Origin: a virus
Virus record (IMG/VR): IMGVR_UViG_3300035136_000041
Location: 1-63,198 of that record
Strand: one strand, 5' to 3'
Length of the DNA stretch: 63,198 nt
In this document: piece by piece, positions 6,711-54,474 of the stretch
Layout: every line of letters begins with the position of its first letter
How positions within the stretch are numbered: position 1 is the first letter of the stretch
Program-made: the position numbers and the translations under genes
Notes under the pieces: model-generated
What the model saw: the letters and a program-made list of their open reading frames with translations, nothing else
Told to the model about the DNA's origin: nothing
Databases searched by the model: none

Positions 6711-7681
6711 GTCTTGTCGCTCTCAGAGATGCAATCGTAGAGAATATTGGGAGCAATATCTCTACGTTTCGTGCTGTGCAGGCGCATGGCGGGCGCTTCT
6801 CTTTGGATGAAATCAAGCGTGTCTCTTTCCCGGAACCCTCATGCCTTGTGGCTGTGTTTGGTGGAAAGACGAAGAGAATAGGCGGAGTATGTGGGTTGTG
6901 TGACGCAGAAGTTGTAGCTTTCATCGTTACCAAAGGTAGCTCTATATCTGTGAGGGATAGAGCGGCTCCATCTCTCGCCGAGGCCGTTGCTCAGCTTGCG
7001 ATCGAGAATACGTGGGGCTGCGACTTTGCCAAAGCTCCAGAAGATGGAGTGATGATCAACAACCTCTATCTGCCGGATATAGATCGCCACCTAGTGTCTC
7101 TATGGTCCGTGTCATGGACGCAGCAAGTCGAGATCGGAACATTCGATCTTACCACGCTTGACGACTTCAACCGTCTGAATGTTCAGGCTGACATAGCCGA
7201 GAGAGATGGGGTCATCGAGCACGAGTTTGACATCTTTCTAAACGGGACTCTCATGAGCGCATATGGACGGGCGTATATCAGTTCGGCTTCGGCAACGTCG
7301 ATCGCGGTGGCTGACGCCTACCAGAAAGTTGCTGGCACGACTACTCTCGTGACGTCTCCTGTCAGCGTCGACGTAGATATGCCTAGCAACAACAGACTTC
7401 GGCATACTGGCTCAGCATCGAAGCCATTCATGATCGAGGCTAACATCTCTGCGGAAGTCAGCGCTGATGCGAAGGTGACATTCGCCTTTGCAAAGAATGG
7501 CACAGTCGACGAGACAGCCGAGGCGGAAGAAGAACTGACTTTAGCTGGCGGTGCTGAATCAATCTCGCTAAAGTCTACTCTTGATCTTGATGAGAATGAC
7601 TATGTCGAGCTCTGGGTGAAGGCTGATGATACTGTGAATGTCACCGTCAACAAAATGAGTCTTGTCGTTGTGGCATCGTAG
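6707..7681 (+). CDS. gp37-like tail terminator (DUF1834) with C-terminal jelly-roll
   Basis: A 324-residue protein. The ATG at 6707 overlaps the previous stop. Residues 1-180 match Mu gp37 (DUF1834): MSLVALRDAIVENIG and the SWTQQVEIGTFDL region. From about residue 185 there is an extra domain (SSASATSIAVADAYQKVAGT ... YVELWVKADDTVNVTV) with the strand pattern of TNF/C1q-like jelly-rolls found on phage virion surfaces. Mu gp37 is only about 190 residues, so this is a domain addition that may decorate the tail-head joint. Confidence 0.75.
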   Translation: MSLVALRDAIVENIGSNISTFRAVQAHGGRFSLDEIKRVSFPEPSCLVAVFGGKTKRIGGVCGLCDAEVVAFIVTKGSSISVRDRAAPSLAEAVAQLAIENTWGCDFAKAPEDGVMINNLYLPDIDRHLVSLWSVSWTQQVEIGTFDLTTLDDFNRLNVQADIAERDGVIEHEFDIFLNGTLMSAYGRAYISSASATSIAVADAYQKVAGTTTLVTSPVSVDVDMPSNNRLRHTGSASKPFMIEANISAEVSADAKVTFAFAKNGTVDETAEAEEELTLAGGAESISLKSTLDLDENDYVELWVKADDTVNVTVNKMSLVVVAS

Positions 7682-7689
7682 GAGAAAAC

Positions 7690-7944
7690 ATGGCTCGCAA
7701 ACCAATTGAGAAATTCTTCGTTGTCCCAGGACCATTCGGTCCTGTGCGGGATCCGATAACGATGAGGATGTTATCCGACAAAGGTGAGTGGAAGCCAAAG
7801 AATATGTATTGGCTGCGCAAGGTGAAAATGCGCGACGTGGTTGACAAGACTTCGGAGAAGCGCGCTCACGACAAACAGCCGAAACTAGCGTTGGAGACAG
7901 AGCAGCAAGCCGATCAGAAGCAAAAGAAAGGTGAATCCAAATGA
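7690..7944 (+). CDS. DUF2635-like small tail protein
   Basis: An 84-residue basic protein. VPGPFGPVRDPITMRMLSDKGEWKPKNMYWLRK matches DUF2635, the small protein encoded just before the Mu-type tail sheath. The C-terminus is a charged helix. Its stop overlaps the sheath start. Confidence 0.8.
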   Translation: MARKPIEKFFVVPGPFGPVRDPITMRMLSDKGEWKPKNMYWLRKVKMRDVVDKTSEKRAHDKQPKLALETEQQADQKQKKGESK

Positions 7945-9419
7945 GCATTTCATTCGATCTCATCTCGACGAACCTACGCACTCATGGGGTGTTCACTGAG
8001 TTCTCGAATGCGCGAGCTGTCTCTACCGCTCCGGACATTCCGAGTGTCGCACTGATCATCGGACAACGTTTGGCAGCTGGTACAGTCGCGGCTGAGGTTC
8101 CTATCTCAGTTCCCAGCGCCGCTAAAGGTGAGGAGTATTTCGGTCATGGGTCGATCCTCGCCCATATGATCGATTACTTCAAGGCAGCCAATCCGTATAC
8201 GGAGTTGTGGGCCGTAGCACTCGATGATGATGGCGGCGGGACTGCTGCCACTGGGACGTTTGTGTTTTCCGGCACCGCAACCGATGATGGCGTGGTCTAC
8301 ACGTACATCGGTGGGGAGCGCATCACGACTGCTGTGTCCCTCAATGACGCTGCTGCGACGGTTGGGGCGGCTGTTGTTGCCGACATCACTGCATATGTGG
8401 CCGAGCACAACCTGCCAATTTCCGCGGCCGGCACGTCGACTGTAACGATCACATGCCTCCACAAGGGCACACTTGGAAACTACATCAATCTAGCTCAGAA
8501 TCTGATCCCAGGTGAAGCGTTGCCGGCTGGTATCACTTGCGTCATCACTCAAGTCGGCAGCGTGATTACTGGAGCAACTGATCCTGACGTTGCCGACGCA
8601 ATCACGGCCATCGGTGGATCTTGGTTCCAGACGATCATATCTGCCTACGCCGATGACACCAATCATGACAAACTCGAGGCTATGGCGCTTAGTTGGTGGC
8701 ATCCATATGAGCAAAAGGACACATCGCTATTTATTGGAGCGATTGGAAACCAGGCCGCCCTCACTGCCCTGGGGAATGCGCGCAACAGCCAGTTCACCGT
8801 TCTGATGGGTGGTGGATTGAGCTCGTCTCCGCCGTGGGCTTGGGCGGCAGTGACTGGGGCTGTAGACGCGTATGAGTCTGACCCGGCTCGTCCGAGGCAG
8901 ACTTTGACGCTCACTGGATTGCGTGCTCCAGCGCAGCCTGACATCTTTACGCAGACCGAGCGGAACACTTTGCTCTACGATGGGGTCTCGACGTTTACTG
9001 TGGGTACTGACGGAACGTGCTATATCGAGCGTTTGATCACCACGTACCAGACGAACGCTCTCGGCGTGGTAGACTCGAGTTACCTCAATCAGACTACCAT
9101 GAGGACCTTGGCCGCTTTGAGATACACCTGGAACGCCTGGGTAGCCTTACGCTTCCCGCGAGCCAAGCTTGCTGATGACACAGCCAACGTGCCAACTGGA
9201 CAATCGATTGTCCAACCGAAGACGCTTGTCAGTGAGGCGTTGGCTTGGTTCCGGTGGTGCGAGACCGAAAAAGGTTGGGTTGAGAACTGGGAGCAGTTCA
9301 AGGATGACCTGCTCATCGAGAGAGACTTGACCGACAAAGACAGAGTCAACATGCGCATGTCTCCCGACCTCATGAATCAATTCCGAGTCTTGGCTGGGCA
9401 GATTCAGTATCTACTATAA
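7941..9419 (+). CDS. Contractile tail sheath protein, Mu gpL-like
   Basis: A 492-residue protein. The RTHGVFTEFSNARA start, the central ITAIGGSWFQTIISAYADDTN block and the C-terminal TTYQTNALGVVDSSYLNQTTMRTLAALRYTWNAW and FPRAKLADD motifs are diagnostic of Mu gpL tail sheath. Residues 90-175 hold a more variable outer domain. It shows the phage is a myovirus with a contractile tail. Confidence 0.94.
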   Translation: MSISFDLISTNLRTHGVFTEFSNARAVSTAPDIPSVALIIGQRLAAGTVAAEVPISVPSAAKGEEYFGHGSILAHMIDYFKAANPYTELWAVALDDDGGGTAATGTFVFSGTATDDGVVYTYIGGERITTAVSLNDAAATVGAAVVADITAYVAEHNLPISAAGTSTVTITCLHKGTLGNYINLAQNLIPGEALPAGITCVITQVGSVITGATDPDVADAITAIGGSWFQTIISAYADDTNHDKLEAMALSWWHPYEQKDTSLFIGAIGNQAALTALGNARNSQFTVLMGGGLSSSPPWAWAAVTGAVDAYESDPARPRQTLTLTGLRAPAQPDIFTQTERNTLLYDGVSTFTVGTDGTCYIERLITTYQTNALGVVDSSYLNQTTMRTLAALRYTWNAWVALRFPRAKLADDTANVPTGQSIVQPKTLVSEALAWFRWCETEKGWVENWEQFKDDLLIERDLTDKDRVNMRMSPDLMNQFRVLAGQIQYLL

Positions 9420-9431
9420 GAGGAGAACATC

Positions 9432-9776
9432 ATGGCCGTAACTGGAATCATCAAACTGTACGTCAATGGTAAGTTGCAAAACACCGTTGAAGATCCAGCC
9501 ATTACTTTGGGCGGGAAGAAGCGCGAGATTATCAAAGGACACAAAATCTACGGCCCAAAGGAATCACTAGAGCCGGGGGCGGTCAAATACAAAATCGCCC
9601 ATATGAGCGATACAGACCTCGATGAACTGAGGAATCTGACCGACGCCACGGTGAAATACGAATGCGACACAGGCCCATCGTATTTGATCACTAATGGTTG
9701 CACTACTGAGCTACTTGAGTTAAGTGGTGGCATGGTTGACGTTGAGATCCAAGGCGATCCAGCCGAGGAGGAGTAA
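9432..9776 (+). CDS. Tail tube protein, Mu gpM-like
   Basis: A 114-residue protein directly after the sheath, with a GGAG ribosome site. The GIIKLYVNGKLQ opening and VEIQGDPAEEE end, with the NGCTTELLELSGGMVDVEIQ strand pattern, match Mu gpM tail tube proteins in size and order. It forms the rigid inner tube. Confidence 0.88.
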   Translation: MAVTGIIKLYVNGKLQNTVEDPAITLGGKKREIIKGHKIYGPKESLEPGAVKYKIAHMSDTDLDELRNLTDATVKYECDTGPSYLITNGCTTELLELSGGMVDVEIQGDPAEEE

Positions 9777-9779
9777 CAC

Positions 9780-10136
9780 ATGGTAAGTGAAGCTGAACAA
9801 GCTACCGAGGAACTGCTCGAGTCTCTGAAAGAGAACGAAGCAGTAACTTTGAACGACGATGGCACTCGGACGGTCAAGCTTTCGGTACCGATCCAGATAA
9901 AGCAAGGCAAGGAGCTTGTCGATTGTGACGAGTTGACGTTCAAAGTTCCGCTTGCCAGAGACCTATTGGTTATGGATCAGGAAAAAGGTGTGATGGCGAA
10001 AAGTTTTCGGCTTGCTTGCCAATTGTGCGGCTTGAGTTATGGGAACTTCTTAAGTCTGAATGCCGAAGACTCTTTGCTGTGCGTTAGCGTCGCTCAGGTG
10101 ATGGGAAAAAAATCACGAACTGGAGGGATCTCCTAG
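9780..10136 (+). CDS. Tail assembly chaperone, short form (gp41-like)
   Basis: A 118-residue protein between tube and tape measure, the position of the G/gp41 chaperone. It is acidic at the N-terminus and has a FKVPLARDLLVMDQEKG segment typical of tail-tube-linked chaperones. Near the 3' end lies the slippery sequence G GGA AAA (10103-10109) in the correct phase for -1 frameshifting. It guides tape-measure folding and tail-length assembly. Confidence 0.85.
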   Translation: MVSEAEQATEELLESLKENEAVTLNDDGTRTVKLSVPIQIKQGKELVDCDELTFKVPLARDLLVMDQEKGVMAKSFRLACQLCGLSYGNFLSLNAEDSLLCVSVAQVMGKKSRTGGIS

Positions 10137-10258
10137 CAAACCTAGCCTACATATTCCACTTTCAGCCAAGTGAGCTATGGAGAATGACGACTGACGAGCT
10201 CCTTTTCTGGGATGATGCCGTAGGGAGAATTTCGGATAGGTTGAAGCGTGGCAAGTGA
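9780..10258 (+). CDS. Tail assembly chaperone, -1 frameshift extension (GT/gp42-like)
   Basis: A -1 shift at GGGAAAA (10103-10109) opens a frame to the TGA at 10256-10258. It adds about 49 residues (NWRDLLANLAYIFHF, then PSELWRMTTDELLFW, DRLKRGK) and gives a fusion of about 159 residues. The extension has the Trp-rich helical look of Mu-like gp42 and of lambda T. It has no ribosome site of its own and its end overlaps the tape-measure start. Inferred from sequence phase and conserved gene order. Confidence 0.85.
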
Positions 10259-16765: not shown

Positions 16766-17173
16766 ATGAGTGGACTGACAGACCTCGCTGAGCAAGCCGC
16801 CCTTGGAGTATTACTGCCAAACGGCATCGATGTGTGGATTGGCTTCTTCACAGAGCTGCCACCAACCAACGACGGTACTGGTGGCACCGAAGCTAGTGGG
16901 TCAGGATATGCCAGGAAAGAACACCAAGCATGGATCAACACAGCGTTTGGAGATATTACATACCGTGTCAACAATGGGGCGATCGAATTCGACGCGCTAA
17001 CAGCCGATCTTGAAGATATCGTTGGGTGGGGTATTTGGGACGCATTGGTAGCTGGCACATTGATTGCGTTCGGCCCAATCCTCGACGTAGCTGGGAATGA
17101 GATTACCAAAACATTCACGAACGGTAATCAACCTAGGTTTATTGATCAGGAATTGAAGATCGGGTTGGGCTGA
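16766..17173 (+). CDS. Small virion-associated beta protein between gp47 and gp48
   Basis: A 135-residue protein. The GYARKEHQAWI, GAIEFDALTADLEDIVGWGIWDA and PRFIDQELKIGLG motifs belong to a widespread phage family of short beta-rich tail-fibre-associated proteins. Mu has no gene at this position. It could be an adaptor between wedge and fibre. Family recognised by pattern; function inferred. Confidence 0.65.
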   Translation: MSGLTDLAEQAALGVLLPNGIDVWIGFFTELPPTNDGTGGTEASGSGYARKEHQAWINTAFGDITYRVNNGAIEFDALTADLEDIVGWGIWDALVAGTLIAFGPILDVAGNEITKTFTNGNQPRFIDQELKIGLG

Positions 17174-22976: not shown

Positions 22977-23231
22977 ATGAAGGATTCGATCAAATCCGTG
23001 GCTTGGAAGTACGTAGGGGCAATGTTCCTCGAGCAGAAAGATGGGGGTATGGCTGTCAGTCTTGGCCGCGTACTCTTGTTGTCTGTGGTTGGTGTTGCTA
23101 TGTGGAAATGGGGGCATGATGCCAATCCACCGGATACGATGATGAAGGTCTTGTACACGCTCTTTGGGTACGTATTCGGGACGAAGGTGGTGACTGCTGT
23201 GCAAGACATTGTTGGTAAGGCCAAACAATGA
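22977..23231 (+). CDS. Holin-like membrane protein
   Basis: An 84-residue protein with one or two hydrophobic segments (LGRVLLLSVVGVAMWKW and VLYTLFGYVFGTKVVTAV) directly after the amidase. The short KDSIKSVAWKY amphipathic start and size fit small phage holins. Confidence 0.7.
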   Translation: MKDSIKSVAWKYVGAMFLEQKDGGMAVSLGRVLLLSVVGVAMWKWGHDANPPDTMMKVLYTLFGYVFGTKVVTAVQDIVGKAKQ

Positions 23232-37472: not shown

Positions 37473-37684
37473 TGTACAAGCTATGCGATGGTGACTTTAT
37501 TGAAACAACATTCGGAGATCTACCAATCGGAGCAAAGTTCCTCGGTATTGCTTCGCATGATCTTTACACAAAGCTCACCAATAGTGAGGCAAGAATCGAT
37601 GAAGGTGTTGGCCTAGGACGAATAGTCCCGCGCTTTCCAAACAACAGAGTACTCGTCAAAGTTGTGTACGAGGAAGATGAGTGA
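37472..37684 (+). CDS. Unknown 70-residue protein
   Basis: ATG 37472 overlaps the previous TGA. DFIETTFGDLPIGAKFLGIAS resembles a small beta-barrel fold common in phage accessory proteins (FxDLPxGAxF motif). Function unknown. Confidence 0.6.
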   Translation: MYKLCDGDFIETTFGDLPIGAKFLGIASHDLYTKLTNSEARIDEGVGLGRIVPRFPNNRVLVKVVYEEDE

Positions 37685-37749
37685 TGTCCTACTGCGAGAA
37701 GGCAAAGAAAAAGCTTGACTCAACTGCTCCGCGGTAGTACAACACCCTC

Positions 37750-37821
37750 GCGAGCCCGAAAGTTATCGCCGCTCCCAGTGCTCGCACCCGGGCTCGCAAC
37801 CTCGCGACGCTGGGAGTCGGC
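37750..37821 (+). ncRNA. H-type pseudoknot leader of ParB/MT-A70 gene
   Basis: Stem 1 pairs GCGAGCCCG (37750-37758) with CGGGCTCGC (37789-37797). Stem 2 pairs GCCGCTCCCAG (37768-37778), which lies in the loop of stem 1, with CTGGGAGTCGGC (37810-37821), leaving one bulged base. The knot ends 17 nt before the ATG at 37839. It is a candidate riboswitch-like or autoregulatory element for the methyltransferase gene. Confidence 0.7.
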
Positions 37822-37838
37822 GCCCTCTGAGGTAGATC

Positions 37839-39032
37839 ATGGCCCTGAAGTTCCATTCCGCAGCCGATCTTTTCCCGTTGATGAGCGACGCCGATATCGA
37901 CAAGCTTGCCGAGGACATTCGAGAGCATGGACTCGTCGAGCCAATCGTCGTGCACAGAGACGATGGCTCGATCCTCGATGGGCGGAATCGCTATCTGGCC
38001 TGCAAGAAAGCGAAGGTGAAGCCAGATACTGAGCAATGGGATGGCCCCGCCGGCTCAGAAGTCACCTACGTTATCTCTCGCAATCTCCACCGACGCCACC
38101 TCAACGAGAGCCAGCGAGCCATGATCGCAGCCCGAGTCAAGTCGATGTTTGAGGCGGAGGCAAAGAAGCGGCAACTAGCCACACTGAAGCGGGGAAAAGA
38201 AGCACCAGCCCCCGTTAAGGAAAATTTACCTGAACGGGACAAGGGTCAGTCTCGAGATCACGCCGGCGAGATGTTCAAGGTCTCTGGGCGCTCGGTCGAC
38301 CACGCCGCAAAAATTCTTAAGAACGCGAGCCCGGAGCTCGTGCAGGCTGTAGACGATGGGACAGCTACGCTCGCTCAAGCCACCAAGCTCATGGGACAGG
38401 ATCACGACACCCAACGCAAGGTCATCTCACGAGCACGGGAGACCGGCAAGACTGCAACGGAAGCATACAGGGTCGTCAAGGCTGAGCACATTGCAAAGGC
38501 AGAGATGACAAAGCCAAGTGGCAAATACCGAGTCATCCTTGCTGACCCACCATGGTCCTACGGCAACAGCATGCCGCCCGGTACCACAGAGCCTCGCGAT
38601 CATTATCCGACGATGAGCCTTGAGGATATTTGCGCATTGCCAGTCAAAGACATGGCTCAAGACGATGCGGTGCTTTTTCTTTGGGTGACCTCCCCCCTTG
38701 TCCCGGAATCCATGCAAGTGATTGAGGCGTGGGGGTTCAAGTACAAAGCAAGCTTCGTTTGGGATAAAGTCAAGCACAACATGGGGCATTACAACTCAGT
38801 CCGCCACGAATTCTTGTGGATCTGCGTCAGAGGAAGCTGCCAACCAGACGTGCGAAAGCTATTTGATTCGGTGGTCGTCGAGGAGCGCACCGAGCATAGC
38901 AAAAAGCCAGAGCAATTCTACGAGATCATCGACACGCTCTATCCACAAGGCAAGCGCATAGAGCTCTTCGCTCGCGCAGCGCGAAAGGGTTGGCAACGGT
39001 GGGGATTTGAAGCGGGAGAATCAGATGCGTGA
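37839..39032 (+). CDS. ParB-domain / MT-A70 adenine methyltransferase fusion
   Basis: A 397-residue protein. Residues 1-100 are ParB/Srx-like (LMSDADIDKLAEDIREHGLVEPIVVHRDDGSILDGRNRYLACK). The middle has an HTH. From about 225 it is an MT-A70 N6-adenine methyltransferase: VILADPPWSYG (DPPW catalytic motif), LFLWVTSPLVPESMQVIEAWGFKYKASFVWDK, RHEFLWICVRG, KPEQFYEIIDTLYP. It probably methylates phage DNA with specificity from the ParB part. Preceded by a pseudoknot leader. Confidence 0.9.
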   Translation: MALKFHSAADLFPLMSDADIDKLAEDIREHGLVEPIVVHRDDGSILDGRNRYLACKKAKVKPDTEQWDGPAGSEVTYVISRNLHRRHLNESQRAMIAARVKSMFEAEAKKRQLATLKRGKEAPAPVKENLPERDKGQSRDHAGEMFKVSGRSVDHAAKILKNASPELVQAVDDGTATLAQATKLMGQDHDTQRKVISRARETGKTATEAYRVVKAEHIAKAEMTKPSGKYRVILADPPWSYGNSMPPGTTEPRDHYPTMSLEDICALPVKDMAQDDAVLFLWVTSPLVPESMQVIEAWGFKYKASFVWDKVKHNMGHYNSVRHEFLWICVRGSCQPDVRKLFDSVVVEERTEHSKKPEQFYEIIDTLYPQGKRIELFARAARKGWQRWGFEAGESDA

Positions 39033-39489: not shown

Positions 39490-40523
39490 TGCCCGACTCA
39501 ATCGTCATCCTACGCTGTAGTAAGAAGCACAAAGCCACCAAAATCCATACGTTGAATGGTACAGACTGGGAAACCGAATCTTACAACGCTGGAAAATGGT
39601 TCGAGCCATACGTCAGATCGGTAGAGGACATCCTGCAACTCGGCCGCCTGATTCATCGTGCCAGCCTCGATGATCGTGCCCTGATTGTCCGTGCTGGACT
39701 CAAAACCACCCCAGAGAAGGGACAGCTTATTCGCAGGCAGTACTTGCCAGATGATTCGGCTCTTATCGACGTCGATAGACAGTGGCTCGCCATCGATTTG
39801 GACAGCGCCCCAGCCCCAAAATGGCTTGACCATCACGACCCCAAGAATCTCAACGATGTGGTCAGATGGTCCGTGCTTCAATATCTCCCACCCATCTTTT
39901 TCGGAGTAGCATGCTATTACCGCTGGTCTGCCTCGGCCGGGGTTAAGCCATGGGACGAATTGAGACTGCAATTGTGGTATTGGTGCGATCGCAAAGTCTC
40001 CAATGCTTCCCTCAAGAATTGGCTGCGTGATACCCCCTACATCGACGTGAGCCTTTTCTGTGCAGCTCAGATTCACTTCATTGCTCGTCCTGTCTTCATC
40101 AACGCCCCCGACCCCATGGGTGATCATCGCGACGGCATGCTACACGGACCACCACATGTCGTTCTACCAAACTGCGTAGTCGATCTCAAGACTTACCAAC
40201 GCCGTATCCAAGAGCGAGCAGCCAAGCCAAAACCGGCAGTCAAGGGTGATCACCACACCGCCTTCGTTCGCGGCTGCGTCCGCAGAGCTATTCAAAATAT
40301 CCGCGATGCCACCGAGGGCAATCGGCACCGAACCATATTTGCTGCGGCCGCATGGCTCGGCAAGCTCGTGGGCGGCGGCTTACTAGACGAGACAACGGCC
40401 GTCGTCGAGCTCGAGCGCGAAATGAAAGCCAAGCTCCCAGCCAAGCGGCACAAGATTGAACTCCGCGCCATCCACGACGGGATCGAGCGAGGAAAAAAGA
40501 CTCCCTTTGATTTTTCTGCTTGA
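39489..40523 (+). CDS. Primase-like (AEP-type) replication protein
   Basis: A 344-residue protein. WLAIDLDSAP supplies the DxD metal motif of archaeo-eukaryotic-type primases, followed by FGVACYYRWSASAGVKP (the SASxG-type motif) and HFIARPVFINAPDPM. The C-terminal 110 residues are a helical domain (FVRGCVRRAIQNIRDATEGNRHRTIFAAAAWLG) like PriCT accessory domains. It likely makes replication primers. Start overlaps the previous stop (TAATG). Confidence 0.78.
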   Translation: MPDSIVILRCSKKHKATKIHTLNGTDWETESYNAGKWFEPYVRSVEDILQLGRLIHRASLDDRALIVRAGLKTTPEKGQLIRRQYLPDDSALIDVDRQWLAIDLDSAPAPKWLDHHDPKNLNDVVRWSVLQYLPPIFFGVACYYRWSASAGVKPWDELRLQLWYWCDRKVSNASLKNWLRDTPYIDVSLFCAAQIHFIARPVFINAPDPMGDHRDGMLHGPPHVVLPNCVVDLKTYQRRIQERAAKPKPAVKGDHHTAFVRGCVRRAIQNIRDATEGNRHRTIFAAAAWLGKLVGGGLLDETTAVVELEREMKAKLPAKRHKIELRAIHDGIERGKKTPFDFSA

Positions 40524-40548
40524 CACCTACCTAACTACGCTGTAGACT
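40520..40548 (+). promoter_or_regulatory. Sigma-70-type promoter
   Basis: TTGACA (40520-40525), 17-bp spacer, TAGACT (40543-40548), the same core as at 25212 (minus) and 47112. It overlaps the primase stop and opens the replication-protein/origin segment. Confidence 0.85.
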
Positions 40549-40583
40549 GCCAGCGTGAGTATCAGGAAAGCAAACATAGTTCT

Positions 40584-40634
40584 GTAGCCCGGGCCGGGTA
40601 CCTCTCCTGGTGCTCACAACCCGGCCTGGGTTGC
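40584..40634 (+). ncRNA. 16-bp leader hairpin
   Basis: GTAGCCCGGGCCGGGT (40584-40599) pairs with ACCCGGCCTGGGTTGC (40619-40634) over 16 bp with three G-U wobbles and a 19-nt loop. The wobbles favour the plus-strand transcript. It lies between the promoter and the GTG at 40653. Confidence 0.7.
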
Positions 40635-40652
40635 AGATTTTTGGAGGCCGAA

Positions 40653-47146: not shown

Positions 47147-47338
47147 ATGAGGACGACACAAGAGATGCAAGGCGGATTCTGGGACATGGGCGACGATTGG
47201 GCCGACGCGATCGCCGAGTCGGACGCCAACCCCTACCGCGGCTGTGACGCAGCATTTGCGGGCGACGATGCCCGGACGCAGTCAGACGACAGCTACGACG
47301 AGCTCGTAGCCCACACACTCTCGACGATCAGAGAGTAA
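47147..47338 (+). CDS. Small acidic protein, probably leaderless
   Basis: A 63-residue protein, MRTTQEMQGGFWDMGDDWADA, acidic and Asp-rich. There is no Shine-Dalgarno because its ATG coincides with the predicted transcription start of a strong promoter. A DNA-mimic or inhibitor role is possible from composition only. Confidence 0.65.
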   Translation: MRTTQEMQGGFWDMGDDWADAIAESDANPYRGCDAAFAGDDARTQSDDSYDELVAHTLSTIRE

Positions 47339-54395: not shown

Positions 54396-54401
54396 GATTA
54401 T

Positions 54402-54458
54402 CGCCAGCCCCGGGCTATAGCAGCGCGCACTGCTGTAGTTTGGACCCCGGGGCTGGCG
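54402..54458 (+). ncRNA. Two-tier intergenic hairpin
   Basis: Outer stem CGCCAGCCCCGGG (54402-54414) with CCCGGGGCTGGCG (54446-54458), inner stem CTATAGCAG (54415-54423) with CTGCTGTAG (54430-54438), 6-nt loop, 7-nt bulge. No U-run follows, so it is unlikely to be a simple terminator; it sits 16 nt before the ATG at 54475. Confidence 0.75.
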
Positions 54459-54474
54459 GTATGTGGAGATCGAT

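Follow-up and report, generated by a model that had tools for sequence, protein, structure and literature searches.

Known leaders and how E1 compares with them

Short pseudoknots near the ribosome-binding site are characteristic of the SAM-II, SAH and preQ1 riboswitches. In ColIb-P9 repZ, a loop pairs with upstream sequence near the ribosome site, and this system requires an upstream reading frame and an antisense RNA. A paired 5′ terminus resists 5′-end-dependent decay (RppH/RNase E or RNase J), as established for 5′-terminal stem-loops such as that of ompA. Among phages, T4 carries a pseudoknot 67 nt 5′ of the gene 32 start codon, and the sequence that comes next, across the ribosome site, is rich in A+U; a 2010 review considered this pseudoknot perhaps the sole viral one that autoregulates translation (PMC3014915). 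The putL element of HK022, of ~70 nt, is located just downstream of PL (PMC9378689).

In this study, we analyzed a viral DNA stretch of 63,198 nt (hereafter the window) and characterized E1, a leader element at 37750-37822 (+) consisting of a 73-nt H-type pseudoknot 5′ of a gene for a ParB/MT-A70 methyltransferase. Like the gene 32 leaders of T4, T2 and RB69, E1 is an H-type pseudoknot in the predicted mRNA leader of a phage gene for a nucleic-acid-binding protein; unlike that of T4, it is separated from the start codon by a 16-nt gap that is not A+U-rich, and its stems are longer and GC-rich. E1 resembles putL in being a folded RNA of ~70 nt from a phage promoter (predicted for E1), whereas put consists of two separate stem-loops and E1 of strong interlocked stems, the sequences having been compared via Rfam only. 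With SAM-II, SAH and preQ1, E1 shares a short pseudoknot near the ribosome site, but it has neither a conserved core nor an Rfam match. The loop-to-upstream pairing of ColIb-P9 repZ is also found in E1, whereas neither an upstream reading frame for such control nor an antisense RNA was seen at this site. E1 matched none of the HDV-like ribozymes, SAM, SAH, preQ1 or other Rfam families. New here are a predicted promoter in register with E1, the leaders E2 and E3, and a group of kissing-loop leaders in A/T-rich phages.

Structure and position of E1

E1 lies in the interval between a 70-aa gene, which ends at 37684, and the ATG of the methyltransferase gene at 37839, and is built from two interlocked inverted repeats. 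The features of the locus are as follows.

37715-37720 (-35) and 37738-37743 (-10), + strand: sigma70-like promoter TTGACT-N17-TACAAC, 9/12 consensus matches, predicted +1 at 37750
37750-37758, + strand: 5′ arm of stem S1, GCGAGCCCG, its first base being the predicted +1
37767-37778, + strand: 5′ arm of stem S2, CGCCGCTCCCAG (RNA CGCCGCUCCCAG)
37789-37797, + strand: 3′ arm of S1, CGGGCTCGC (RNA CGGGCUCGC), within the apical loop of the S2 hairpin
37810-37822, + strand: 3′ arm of S2, CTGGGAG(T)CGGCG (RNA CUGGGAG(U)CGGCG), with bulged U37817
37829-37832, + strand: Shine-Dalgarno sequence GAGG, read from the sequence, 6 nt past the pseudoknot
37839-39032, + strand: ParB-N/MT-A70 methyltransferase gene, 397 aa, ADPPW motif intact

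S1 comprises 9 bp with zero mismatches, and S2 comprises 12 bp interrupted by the single bulged U37817. Another 2 bp (U37779-G37809 and G37780-C37808) and then 4 bp (37782-37785/37804-37807) can lengthen S2, so that the 3′ arm of S1 falls inside an 18-nt apical loop (37786-37803) and the topology becomes that of a hairpin whose loop is paired back to the 5′ end. The loop lengths of 8, 8-10 and 10-12 nt allow both stems to exist simultaneously. The last paired base lies 16 nt from the ATG, and the spacer 37823-37838 (CCCTCTGAGGTAGATC) is neither A+U-rich nor does it contain a U run. A preliminary description of this DNA had recognized the two interlocked stems ending shortly before the start codon, the 9 bp of S1 and the single bulge of S2; its figures of 11 bp for S2 and 17 nt for the distance are corrected here to 12 bp and 16 nt.

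The downstream gene product has Pfam matches to MT-A70 (1.4e-25) and ParB_N (2.2e-4) and a match to phrog_21315 (1.5e-72); the A235-DPPW motif is invariant in the alignment of homologues. Type III antitoxin RNAs consist of tandem pseudoknot units 5′ of a toxin gene; no such tandem unit was found at the E1 site, and the downstream gene is a methyltransferase.

Comparison of E1 with chance expectation

We scanned the window for pseudoknots, permitting one-base bulges, requiring compact loops and scoring by stacking energy. E1 was the top compact pseudoknot on the + strand, scoring -51.1 kcal/mol compared with -38.6 for the runner-up. Shuffling the 117-nt leader 3,000 times never matched its score, and shuffling the whole window matched it in one of 60 trials. 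When S2 was held fixed, S1 was reached in 3 of 2,000 shuffles of the upstream sequence and in 17 of 2,000 shuffles of the loop. These results confirm that the H-type pseudoknot, first noted in the preliminary description, is real in the sequence and well above chance.

One could suppose that the interlocked inverted repeats act as an operator at the DNA level, or that they are fortuitous: the gap is GC-rich (68% compared with 52% overall) and carries repeated CTCGC/CCTCGCGA words as potential binding sites. The reverse strand at E1 also gives a similar pseudoknot score, as is necessarily expected. However, the leader shuffles preserve the local composition and fail to reproduce E1, and the promoter stands in register with the structure, making this explanation improbable. 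As a candidate operator word, CCTCGCGA was set aside, since it is not enriched in the window.

Taken by itself, the nested fold at E1 did not stand out when 151 nt were folded (z = -1.05) and was of moderate strength for 100 nt (z = -2.64). A crude energy for the knot, computed from stacking sums and ViennaRNA folds without a proper pseudoknot model, was approximately -67.5 before penalty (-31.3 for the open-loop hairpin, -22.5 for S1 stacking and -13.7 for the downstream part). The best nested fold of 37750-37900 reached -51.3, and by these estimates the knot would be favored unless the pseudoknot penalty exceeds ~16 kcal/mol.

The preliminary description had also proposed a ligand-sensing RNA, for example one that responds to AdoMet, AdoHcy or nucleotides. 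The downstream enzyme is AdoMet-dependent, and the SAM-II and SAH riboswitches employ pseudoknots. However, the suggested comparison with SAM/SAH riboswitch models yielded no match of E1 in Rfam, homologous leaders contain no conserved core, and modeled exposure of the Shine-Dalgarno sequence is unaffected by the knot. The same layout also precedes an unrelated 70-aa gene and, in other phages, DUF6291 genes, as described below. Ligand sensing thus finds no support and is the least probable of the roles considered. In the model, the central GG of the Shine-Dalgarno sequence is mostly paired locally, knot or no knot. A switch in which the knot frees the Shine-Dalgarno sequence from a nested fold (CCUCG..GAG with CUCUGAGG) was rejected as unsupported, since the modeled exposure of GG 37831-37832 was ~0.02-0.13 with or without the knot.

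A predicted promoter in register with the structure

Promoters throughout this study are consensus matches. For the promoter upstream of E1, position +7 falls on the first base of S1 (37750), and the leader transcript is thus predicted from sequence to begin on the first paired base of E1. An equally good promoter site at this offset occurs at 0.11% of window positions (p = 0.0011, for E1 alone).

Sites resembling TTGACA-N17-TAGACT, which is probably the early promoter type of this phage, were also observed at window positions 47147 (+) and 25177 (-) and at position 16998 (+) of the contig of L082, a relative (IMGVR 3300037124_000033) with an 81% identical helicase. The leaders at these three sites are short and unstructured, so that not every promoter requires such a fold.

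Sister element E2 and hairpin element E3

Two further elements in the window occupy comparable positions.

40520-40548, + strand: E2 promoter TTGACA-N17-TAGACT, 10/12, predicted +1 at 40555
40555-40637, + strand: E2 interlocked stems, A 40555-40567/40605-40617 (13 bp) and B 40581-40599/40619-40637 (19 bp)
54399-54461, + strand: E3 nested hairpin of 16 bp plus an inner 9 bp, starting from the predicted +1 and ending 13 nt before ATG 54475

E2 ends 15 nt before the GTG (40653) of a 70-aa gene, and UUUUU follows it in the window. The loop between A′ and B′ is 1 nt; full co-pairing of A and B is therefore unlikely, and the stems of E2 may alternate. E3 (fold z = -5.74) fills the gap before ATG 54475, and its promoter in the window scores 7.5 after the spacer penalty.

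E2 is conserved in L082 at 10100-10187 (leader region 10065-10203), where all 9 and 19 bp are paired; in each of stems A and B, two base pairs have changed on both sides. Its promoter there, TTGACA-N17-TAGAAT, matches at 11/12 with the same offset, its +7 position (10100) being the first base of the stem. The L082 contig retains E3 as well (L127, contig 23046-23110); a paired change is seen there, and position +7 of its promoter TTGACA-N17-AATCAT is 23046, where the structure begins. The +7 position thus coincides with the first base of the structure in E1, in E2, and in the E2 and E3 of L082. Homologues of the E2 gene other than that of L082 were not found. In L082, two similar hairpin-plus-terminator units (GGGUCGGG..CCUGGCCC plus U8) were also observed in tandem at 9650-9815.

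E1, E2 and E3 are unlike in fold and sequence, and no convincing common sequence was detected among them; what they have in common is placement, from the predicted first nucleotide to a point no more than ~16 nt before the start codon. A possible sequence kinship between E1 and E2 (13/2,000 in shuffles) was rejected, being out of structural register. Since E3 is a plain hairpin in the same position, what unites the three is structure at the 5′ end. This common placement points to a job that needs a sealed 5′ end and a separated ribosome site.

The same arrangement also bears on put-like antitermination, in which the nascent 5′ structure would bind RNA polymerase and cause readthrough of downstream terminators, as with HK022 putL. 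The length of E1 (73 nt) and its position from +1 to +73 fit putL, and E2 and E3 lie at other phage promoters. However, put consists of two side-by-side stem-loops with conserved bases rather than an interlocked pair, and the three elements do not share a convincing sequence, so that we regard this role as doubtful.

Search for relatives of E1

The 19-base core of E1 had no exact match in IMG/VR, a blastn search of phage and plasmid sequences with the leader returned chance-level matches only, and the leader DNA had no match in the six nearest contigs. Rfam gave no covariance-model match at gathering level across the whole window, and at E 10 over 37650-37950 only an irrelevant miRNA family on the opposite strand. 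A check for syntenic conservation in L082 failed because other genes occupy that place: L082 does not have the methyltransferase module and carries different genes between the helicase operon and a primase-like gene. At 7200-8480, in place of the MT-A70 module, it contains a zinc-finger-like ORF and a 177-aa ORF that contains an NPPG motif and matches no Pfam family.

Upstream of the homologous genes in L116, L124, L123, L119 and L117 (43-56% identity over the length), no comparable pseudoknot was found; in the close homologues L116, L124 and L123, the leader position is coding sequence or has no such fold. A sequence kinship between E1 and the L014 leader was rejected (397/2,000 in shuffles). 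A 96-nt hairpin-rich element was observed at L014:2573-2682 and L018:1375-1470 (98% identical), with MT-A70 downstream in one and a different gene in the other.

Leaders of homologous genes in other phages

To extend the comparison, 125 non-redundant leaders of ParB/MT-A70 homologues were each evaluated against their own shuffles; gene calls and start codons in the surveyed loci were mechanical. Interlocked stems at p <= 0.005 were present in 20 leaders, E1 included, where fewer than one was expected. Most of the 20 belong to a coherent kissing-loop type in A/T-rich phages, with the layout of a TAnnTTTG promoter, a small P1 hairpin (its loop termed A), a linker, a terminator-like hairpin with an apical loop A′ complementary to A, a U-tract and the ATG. 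Kissing-loop leaders were located as follows.

Before ParB/MT-A70 genes: L052:2847-2967, L027:1340-1461, L063:1402-1523, L219:1188-1307, L158:570-690
Before ParB/MT-A70 genes, further loci: L272, L244, L268, L235, L239
Long-P1 variant: L140 up to 499, L264, L245, L143 up to 227, L145 up to 1061, L151
Long-P1 variant, continued: L285, L282, L286, L288 up to 1218, L165 up to 730

The long-P1 variant (UCCUUUGG-type) kisses the terminator loop over 7 nt and in most cases has an extra hairpin; the first seven of its loci listed (L140 to L285) represent a second kissing type with a longer P1 and that hairpin.

The 8-nt kissing segments vary among phages yet stay complementary, with 14 distinct pairs. 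In these segments, 100% of cells were paired compared with 66% in shuffles and 43 cells were changed on both sides, a covariation that is inflated because members were partly chosen for complementarity. MAFFT gave no structural alignment of the family, so the kissing segments alone were counted. At p <= 0.01, the kissing descriptor matched 25 of 139 methyltransferase leaders and 40 of 1,320 other leaders (Fisher 1e-10, ignoring phage relatedness), giving far less on other genes and on shuffles; a looser descriptor was dropped as too permissive. None of the kissing-type leaders scanned had an Rfam match at gathering level.

These leaders are not exclusive to the methyltransferase, as they precede DUF6291 genes in L155 and L240. 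Leaders before DUF6291(-like) genes were observed in L155 (up to 3704) and L240 (up to 3191) and, by sequence likeness, in L195 (up to 2292), L254 (up to 3174), L058 (up to 4680) and L066 (up to 4456). L155 has two leaders, one for the methyltransferase and one for DUF6291, with unlike kissing sequences. Other interlocked stems observed were those of L122:2764-2850 (12 + 21 bp), directly 5′ of AGGAG and a small gene upstream of MT-A70, with the highest score observed (-70.1), and those of L067:2519-2628 (11 + 21 bp), before GGAGGAG and an MT-A70 start.

The kissing-loop family and E1 are alike in having a promoter, a loop-to-upstream pairing and then the start codon of a ParB/MT-A70 gene. The family differs from E1 in sequence, in its P1 hairpin, in mostly ending on a U-tract and in a kiss of 6-8 bp compared with the 9-bp stem of E1. 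Under the kissing descriptor, E1 has no P1 stem of at least 4 bp and is not among the matches. As E1 shows neither the family sequence nor the P1 hairpin and U-tract, it was not filed in this family.

The terminator-like hairpins with U-tracts in L052, L027, L219, L140 and others, together with the UUUUU after E2 in the window, would suit an attenuator, in which folding of the leader chooses between termination and readthrough. However, a U-tract directly 3′ of S2 is absent from E1, where the terminator scan lists no intrinsic terminator, and none follows E2 in L082; for E1, attenuation is accordingly quite unlikely.

The occurrence of kissing-loop leaders before ParB/MT-A70 and DUF6291 genes in unrelated phages makes a regulatory leader role plausible. 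The most interesting rival is autoregulation by the methyltransferase, in which excess ParB/MT-A70 protein would bind the knot in its own leader and block translation, like T4 gp32. E1 adjoins the ribosome-binding site, its product is a nucleic-acid enzyme, gene 32 provides a precedent, and in other phages this gene family has covarying leaders with pseudoknots or kissing loops, at the frequencies given above. However, the same layout is found at the unrelated 70-aa gene behind E2 and at DUF6291 genes of other phages, the closest homologues of the enzyme do not have such a leader, and ParB/MT-A70 fusions are not known to bind RNA. On balance we consider autoregulation unlikely, though less so than a DNA-level operator or antitermination.

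Proposed role of E1

The proposal that E1 is a structured mRNA leader of the methyltransferase gene gained support from the promoter in register, the covarying sister element E2 and the pseudoknotted or kissing leaders of homologues. Our preferred reading, to which we assign a probability of roughly 0.42, is that E1 is a 5′-terminal pseudoknotted leader that protects or otherwise controls its own transcript, most likely as a 5′-end cap. A dedicated phage promoter just 5′ of the ParB/MT-A70 gene would produce an mRNA with E1 as the 5′-terminal part of its leader. The 5′ arm of S1 would come first in the RNA, making the initial nucleotide base-paired, and the S2 hairpin would come next, its apical loop pairing back to the 5′ end; the resulting compact knot would close 6 nt before the Shine-Dalgarno sequence. 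Acting in cis, E1 may thereby hinder pyrophosphate removal and attack by 5′-end-dependent nucleases, and its fold may hold upstream sequence off the start site, making methyltransferase output higher and steadier. The two stems, their excess over shuffles and their placement before the start codon, which recurs at E2 and E3, are observed in the sequence, and promoter use, formation of the knot in vivo and protection from decay are each inferred here.

Protection of the 5′ end is the simplest job that fits a sealed 5′ end. E1 lies far beyond its shuffles, the crude energies favor the knot, the promoter register recurs at E1, at E2 and at the E2 and E3 of L082, the stems of E2 covary between two phages, and E3 is co-positioned. 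On the other hand, the E1 promoter matches at just 9/12 and that of E3 in the window is modest after the spacer penalty, several other promoter-like sites have short unstructured leaders, the searched collections hold no homologue of E1, and close homologues of the gene do not have such a fold. A plain hairpin would also suffice as a cap, leaving the knot unexplained.

Implications

E1 and its conserved sister element together provide a small, cloneable system for knotted 5′ ends, whether these serve as cap, translation gate or site of product binding. The kissing-loop leaders constitute a covarying RNA family without an Rfam entry that precedes early phage genes, including ParB/MT-A70. A broader but tentative idea, which we hold improbable to about the same degree as autoregulation of E1 itself, is that ParB/MT-A70 phage genes are recurrently controlled by promoter-proximal knotted leaders of several origins, the E1-type pseudoknot here and the covarying kissing-loop leaders elsewhere, the fold being read by the enzyme or by a shared factor. 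If true, the recurrent knotted leaders of ParB/MT-A70 genes would place a second class of autoregulatory viral pseudoknots alongside that of T4 gene 32.
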